A stretch of DNA of 34,407 bases from Nanobdellati archaeon (GTDB lineage: Archaea; EX4484-52; GLR71), in contig JAHYJO010000014.1 of the NCBI GenBank assembly GCA_019429125.1, forward strand, positions 10,335 to 44,741, written 5' to 3'. Shown piece by piece: positions 14,791 through 14,944 of the stretch. The position numbers were made by a program, and so were the translations under genes. The stretch's first letter is position 1. Each line of letters begins with the position of its first letter. The notes beneath the pieces are model-generated. The model had not been told where the DNA came from. It saw only the letters and a list, made by a program, of their open reading frames with translations, and did no database searches.

Positions 14791-14800
14791 CTTTAAATAT
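14791..14800 (+). promoter_or_regulatory. TATA box of the tRNA-Arg gene
   Basis: ctttaaatat is centred ~30 bases before the first tRNA base, the normal archaeal TATA distance. Confidence 0.6.
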
Positions 14801-14824: not shown

Positions 14825-14944
14825 GCCCTTGTAGTTTAGCTTGGATAGGACATTAGGTCGCGGTCCTAATAACCTGGGTTCAAATTTCAAAAATCAGGAT
14901 ATTTAAATATTTCCAGAATTTGTCTGAAAATCCCAGCAAGGGTA
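14825..14944 (+). tRNA. tRNA-Arg (anticodon GCG) with a 46-base intron in the T-loop
   Basis: All arms fold. Acceptor GCCCTTG pairs with CAAGGGT (first pair G.U), D-stem GTTT/GGAC, anticodon stem TTAGG/CCTAA, T-stem CTGGG/CCCAG, discriminator A at 14944, no encoded CCA. The anticodon loop is TCGCGGT, giving GCG; A20 in the D-loop (GGATA) agrees with Arg identity. The T-loop TTCAAA|T is interrupted by 14885-14930. UUCA (intron side) pairs with UGAA near the 3' site and each junction reads AA^U, as in a relaxed bulge-helix-bulge site for the archaeal splicing endonuclease. Position 33 is C rather than the near-universal U, which is odd. Confidence 0.85.
14885..14930 (+). other. tRNA intron (T-loop, between positions 59 and 60)
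   Basis: 46 bases. The ends can pair (TTCA at 14886-14889 with TGAA at 14925-14928, leaving AAT bulges at both junctions) and the middle holds a self-complementary ggatat/atattt hairpin. Removing it restores a 7-base T-loop TTCAAAT and a 5-bp T-stem. Confidence 0.75.

Follow-up and report, generated by a model that had tools for sequence, protein, structure and literature searches.

A T-loop-interrupted tRNA-Arg(GCG) gene and small introns that appear to jump between tRNA genes in a DPANN-type archaeal lineage

In this study we analyzed a 34,407-nt stretch of DNA (the window) from the genome of a Nanobdellati archaeon (the focal genome, G000; 93% complete) and compared it with six congeners (G001-G006); all of these genomes are draft assemblies. 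The window very probably contains a functional tRNA-Arg(GCG) gene, present as a single copy and split between tRNA positions 59 and 60 by one small mobile intron, which would be spliced by means of a motif formed between the exon T-loop (UUCR) and the intron (YGAA). Judging from its close copies, this intron most probably belongs to a mobile family, which has reached six or more tRNA genes of the genus. More generally, small introns appear to be moving from one tRNA gene to another in this archaeal lineage. The features of the locus are listed in Table 1.

Table 1. The interrupted tRNA-Arg(GCG) gene and its predicted splice elements (positions in the window)
Feature	Positions	Strand	Basis
Putative TATA-box-like promoter element TTTAAATA	14791..14798	+	~27-34 nt before the tRNA-Arg(GCG) gene; suggested by sequence reading
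tRNA-Arg(GCG) gene, T-loop-interrupted	14825-14944	+	sequence reading and descriptor match
5' exon, tRNA positions 1-59	14825..14884	+	descriptor match; 98%, 98% and 87% identity in G003, G006 and G001
Anticodon loop UCGCGGU (anticodon GCG, 14860-14862; C33, 14859)	14858..14864	+	identical in G003 and G006; UUGCGGA in G001
Exon T-loop U54-U55-C56-A57, predicted 5' strand of the central splice helix	14879..14882	+	covariation with intron YGAA
46-nt T-loop intron of family A, between 59 and 60	14885..14930	+	same position and borders in G001, G003 and G006
Inner intron stem-loop, CAAA (14888-14891)/UUUG (14919-14922) with a hairpin between	14888..14922	+	predicted fold; CGAA/UUCG in the copies of G001, G002 and G004
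Intron UGAA, predicted 3' strand of the central splice helix, with the bulge AA^U after it	14925..14928	+	covariation
3' exon: U60, T-stem 3' strand CCCAG, acceptor CAAGGGU, discriminator A73	14931..14944	+	compensatory changes in G001

Without the intron, the gene yields a complete cloverleaf, composed of the acceptor stem GCCCUUG/CAAGGGU, D-stem GUUU/GGAC, anticodon stem UUAGG/CCUAA and T-stem CUGGG/CCCAG (7/7, 4/4, 5/5 and 5/5 pairs, respectively, in the descriptor scan), with UUCAAAU as the spliced T-loop. Direct inspection and the descriptor scan thus agree with an earlier, sequence-only reading of this DNA, which had placed a 46-base interruption at 59/60 of a tRNA-Arg(GCG) with the same outer coordinates. 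Its warning that standard finders may miss the gene was also justified: in the window the gene was reported neither by ARAGORN, run with and without anticodon-loop introns, nor by Rfam at the gathering threshold, and the unspliced form obtained only 13.9 bits (E = 3.7) with the tRNA covariance model. A descriptor tolerating T-loop introns matched exactly once in the window, at this gene; in the control, 1.28 Mb of reversed sequence gave 0 matches against 56 distinct real ones. Since the same split gene is found in three other species, its occurrence is far beyond chance. An AT-rich stretch upstream of the gene is also seen at congener loci (L120/L136).

The three species are G003, G006 and G001, in which the intron (46-47 nt) occupies the same place. 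The copy of G001 is the most diverged, with a compensated T-stem (CCGGG/CCCGG) and the pair G1-C72. Intron-less Arg(GCG) genes were identified in the farther relatives G008 (same family) and G009 (same order). According to the sequence-only reading, a second, intact tRNA-Arg(GCG) would point to a pseudogene; we found none in the 93% complete focal genome, although absences are soft in all of these fragmented draft genomes. CGU and CGC together account for 95 of the 321 Arg codons in the main ORFs of the window. That C33 and the insertion mark a decaying, dead tRNA is hardly credible: C33 is uncommon (seen in 7 of the 165 distinct tRNAs examined) and the covariance score of the unspliced gene is low, but the stems are maintained in four species, no replacement copy was found, and C33 is common to three of these species and occurs in the otherwise ordinary tRNA-Ala(GGC). 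We therefore rejected the pseudogene reading, and the conservation pattern argues for a functional single-copy gene.

U33 is nearly universal in functional tRNAs, though not strictly defining, and the sequence-only reading had noted C33 as unusual for a functional tRNA. C33 is indeed present and rare, but it gives no sign of decay, being conserved in a subclade and found in another tRNA as well. The Arg(GCG) loop is UCGCGGU in G000, G003 and G006, and UUGCGGA (U33) in G001, while the AspRS tree places G000 with G003, G005 and G006, and G001 with G002 and G004; together, the grouping and the distribution of C33 indicate that C33 (with U38) is derived in one subclade. The seven distinct tRNAs lacking U33 represent the Arg(GCG) of this subclade, the Ala(GGC) of all examined congeners, whose loop UCGGCAU combines C33 with U32 and U38 (L011, L184, L197, L219, L234), and the Val(GAC) of G003 (loop UCGACAU); a lower-scoring Gln(CTG) of G004 likewise has C33. 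Because it recurs in Ala(GGC), G003 Val(GAC) and G004 Gln(CTG), C33 is evidently tolerated in these genomes, where it is found mostly alongside U32, G34 and U38. A literature search on C33 in archaeal tRNAs found nothing usable.

In the canonical geometry of anticodon-loop introns, two 3-nt bulges lie on opposite strands, with 4 bp between them. Our comparisons suggest that the T-loop introns represent this geometry moved to the T-loop, as their pre-tRNAs show the same order of elements: stem, 3' bulge AA^U, 4 bp, 5' bulge AA^N and intron helix. The exon T-loop (U54-U55-C56-R57) pairs with intron YGAA, and all 13 family A copies in the T-arm alignment retain this UUCR:YGAA complementarity. T-loop UUCA is accompanied by UGAA and UUCG by CGAA; position 57 covaries with the intron base that lies sixth from the 3' end. 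Across the order, the combinations at position 57 are A57:U (35), G57:C (11), G57:U (5) and A57:C (0), with three exceptions (Fisher P = 2e-7 on distinct sequences, uncorrected for relatedness). When splicing was set to occur at 59/60, all four central pairs could form in 49 of the 62 distinct T-loop pre-tRNAs and three pairs in another 12, while a four-pair helix arises in 2% of shuffled introns. In 20 of the 62 the intron helix follows directly, which completes the canonical bulge-helix-bulge. In family A the central 4 bp and the 3' bulge are present, with covariation, and a UU/UC mismatch adjoins the 5' bulge before the inner CAAA/UUUG helix, which itself covaries with CGAA/UUCG.

The sequence-only reading had offered another model, in which the junctions are separated by a UUCA/UGAA helix of the intron's own, forming a relaxed motif that requires a broad-specificity endonuclease; among known enzymes this would be the crenarchaeal or ARMAN type. 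Such a helix can be drawn in the focal copy, where the folding energies are close (-10.3, against -11.0 for the exon pairing and -11.4 with these bases left unpaired), and the model could also draw on a short lysine-bearing loop at the crenarchaeal-loop site of the splicing endonuclease EndA, together with a conserved 7-aa insertion between its catalytic Tyr and His. However, the intron-own helix breaks in the Gln(CTG) copies of G000 and G006 and in the Gln(TTG) copy of G005, whereas the exon helix is kept everywhere; the 20 complete canonical motifs also speak against it, as does the failure to find a second EndA subunit in the focal genome or any relative of the order. Covariation separates these alternatives, which the folding energies do not, and we consequently prefer the exon-intron helix, rejected the intron-intron one, and consider the model as a whole very unlikely. 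The description of the motif as relaxed holds for its intron side; the exon-side half is canonical, as the splice helix is built from the exon T-loop and the intron. With UUCR:YGAA pairing, the universal T-loop would itself supply half of the bulge-helix-bulge.

A search for the endonuclease type, suggested in the sequence-only reading, revealed one EndA gene (PF01974) of 189 aa in the focal genome, which also has an RtcB gene. Neither a gene for a second EndA subunit nor a fused three-unit protein was found, and no genome of the order gave more than one EndA match, from which a homotetramer is expected; a broad-specificity enzyme of several subunits is not evident. The EndA proteins of the order share the 7-aa insertion, and their short loop EEEK[VI][KS]YLQL near the crenarchaeal-loop site carries the lysine in most of the order (it is absent in G027, G029 and G033). 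We considered the 7-aa insertion as the crenarchaeal-specific loop and rejected this, since that loop sits in the N-terminal half of the protein (PMC12397907). The same insertion between the catalytic Tyr and His was observed in the EndA of G050 (L092), from another small-genome family. The alpha4 EndA has been described as narrow and the loop-bearing EndA as broad in specificity (PMC6379350, PMC12397907); the focal sequence is compatible either with a broad enzyme or with motifs that are canonical enough for a narrow one. EndA and RtcB would in any case be the candidate machinery for splicing of the T-loop intron.

The focal genome contains at least eight T-loop introns, including that of Arg(GCG), the others being located in Arg(CCT) (40 nt), Gly(CCC) (45 nt), Leu(TAA) (98 nt), Lys(CTT) (173 nt), Asp(GTC) (91 nt), Ala(TGC) (34 nt) and Gln(CTG) (46 nt). 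Clustering of the T-loop introns found in the seven congeners revealed two families that cross isoacceptors, each occurring in six of them. Family A (46-47 nt; 12 clustered copies) comprises near-identical introns, distributed over the seven congeners, in the T-loops of Arg(GCG), Arg(TCT), Gln(CTG), Gln(TTG), Glu(CTC) and Gly(TCC), and the intron in Glu(CTC) of G005 equals that in Arg(TCT) of G006 over 46/46 nt. When the genus was searched with the family A element, every full-length copy detected lay in a tRNA T-loop; among the weaker matches (E >= 0.08), those inspected were not tRNAs. Family B (about 99-173 nt) includes introns of Lys(CTT), Lys(TTT), Glu(TTC), Arg(TCG), Leu(TAA) of G005 and Gly(CCC) of G006, and is probably mobile like family A.

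Orthologous empty and filled sites, with flanks 74-94% identical, were identified for Arg(TCT), Glu(CTC) and Gly(TCC); in the case of Arg(TCT), the site is empty in G000 and filled in G003 (flanks 87-88%). Two Gln(CTG) genes occur in G006, one containing the intron and one lacking it: the exons and 39 nt upstream are identical, but the downstream flanks differ, so a strain mixture or a duplication is possible. Three sites are filled in one congener only, namely Glu(CTC) in G005, Lys(TTT) in G004 and Arg(TCG) in G006. Gain and precise loss were distinguished by parsimony, for some sites only, and gain is the simpler reading for Glu(CTC) and Lys(TTT). It is unlikely that the T-loop introns are instead static and vertically inherited, many of them present in an ancestor and lost in some species, with their likeness due to gene conversion between old introns. 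The introns of Arg(CCT) (40 nt) and Asp(GTC) (86-95 nt) are indeed each confined to one gene and vertical, and within-genome likeness (97% between Lys(CTT) and Lys(TTT) of G004, 94% between Glu(TTC) and Lys(CTT) of G005) could reflect conversion. However, with Glu(CTC) empty in G000-G004, several independent precise losses would have to be placed on the AspRS tree, the single filled sites of Lys(TTT) and Arg(TCG) also count against static introns, and full identity over 46 nt between different genes of different species is hard to keep without recent movement.

The members of family B (L192, L229, L250, L256, L257, L210 and others; G001-G006), located in Lys, Glu, Arg, Leu and Gly tRNAs, share a conserved core, and this intron may carry an RNA function of its own; Rfam searches of the loci with family B introns returned nothing credible besides the tRNAs themselves.

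Beyond the genus, we used a strict pattern (GGTTCRAA, 12-42 nt, GAAAATCC), which matched in 20 of 34 genomes of the order and phylum, compared with 3 matches for the same pattern read backwards. Of the matches inspected, 28 of 31 were tRNAs with T-loop introns. At least one match, the sole one in G007, is probably coding sequence. Over 394 archaeal genomes the pattern was sporadic, with a few other rich families; several matches were noted in G103, G039 (whose EndA has 387 aa), G262, G336 and G387. The phenomenon may thus reach beyond the order.

Some further unusual tRNA genes were observed. The focal genome encodes a tRNA with the anticodon UAU (Ile) and a 52-nt anticodon-loop intron (G000:C16:123028-123141; L029/L074), while most archaea use tRNA-Ile(CAU). 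Its tRNA-Leu(CAA) has a D-loop insertion that is probably another non-canonical intron (G000:C16:110222-110347; L075), and the anticodon-loop intron of its tRNA-Trp (G000:C13; L069/L003), 120 nt in length, has GATGA and CTGA boxes and resembles the guide-RNA intron known from other archaeal tRNA-Trp genes. A Leu-like tRNA body with a long variable arm and the loop CTCTGAA (anticodon CUG) is present in G006 (C113; L203 364-449).

The events described here bear on how introns enter archaeal tRNA genes and are apparently recent: sister species share an intron of 46 nt in different genes, the empty sites are exact, and one genome shows both states. In the transcript, the T-stem would be followed by the 4-bp helix between T-loop UUCR and intron YGAA. 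The 3-nt bulges flanking this helix, AA^U on its 3' side and A58A59^U on its 5' side, would both be cut by the single EndA, and RtcB would join the exons. As nearly every T-loop carries UUCRAA, any intron ending in YGAAAA could form the same motif in any tRNA, and such introns could consequently pass between genes while leaving the host tRNA functional. The pairing rule would thereby explain why the T-loop is the target. Transfer between tRNA genes would have been repeated within the focal genus, at the DNA level either by reverse splicing followed by recombination or by short gene conversion through the shared GGTTCRAA...TCC core. A bolder idea, which is possible but which we hold to be rather doubtful, is that the T-loop acts as a universal landing site: an excised intron terminating in YGAAAA might reverse-splice at 59/60 into any tRNA, because half of the splice motif is always present there as UUCRAA, and be copied back into DNA, with a single-gene EndA with lineage-specific active-site loops permitting this. 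In addition, the tRNA counts and completeness of such genomes are probably underestimated, because common finders miss T-loop-split genes. The intron models of tRNAscan-SE 2.0 were built from Crenarchaeota, Euryarchaeota and Thaumarchaeota.

The MAGs closest in sequence were deposited under the names Ca. Nanohaloarchaea, 'archaeon GLR71' and Ca. Aenigmatarchaeota. Our literature searches found no paper on the tRNA introns of this lineage and nothing usable on disrupted tRNAs in DPANN, and to our knowledge the jumping of small tRNA introns has not been described in it.

Position 59/60 is listed among the non-canonical intron positions of archaeal tRNAs (PMC4090602); the site here is the same, with at least eight T-loop introns in one genome. 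As regards the endonuclease, the closest parallel is the narrow alpha4 EndA of Methanocaldococcus jannaschii (PMC6379350), likewise encoded by one gene: the focal 189-aa protein aligns over its full length to PDB 1A79, but differs in the 7-aa Tyr-His insertion and in a slightly longer lysine-bearing loop at the crenarchaeal-loop site. The broad epsilon2 EndA of ARMAN-2 (PMC12397907) also has extra residues near the active site, including some between the catalytic Tyr and His; however, it is a three-unit protein of 390 aa, whereas the focal enzyme is single-unit and has no ARMAN-specific loop of equal length.

Transposition of tRNA introns has been reported in Thermoproteales (Fujishima et al. 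2010, as cited in PMC4033280 and PMC4090602), and its mechanism in archaea was called unknown (PMC4090602). As far as these citing accounts describe it, that system resembles the present one in having transposed introns and a splice motif of the bulge-helix-bulge kind, and the corresponding signs, similar introns in different isoacceptors and presence or absence at orthologous tRNA genes, were both found in the focal genus. On the same accounts, the differences are the lineage (here, relatives deposited as Ca. Nanohaloarchaea and Aenigmatarchaeota MAGs), the location of both families at the T-loop, the exon-intron covariation at position 57, which is seen directly here, and the single EndA gene, in contrast to the two-subunit crenarchaeal enzyme. 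The tRNA intron transposition known from Thermoproteales thus appears to occur also in a DPANN-type lineage.
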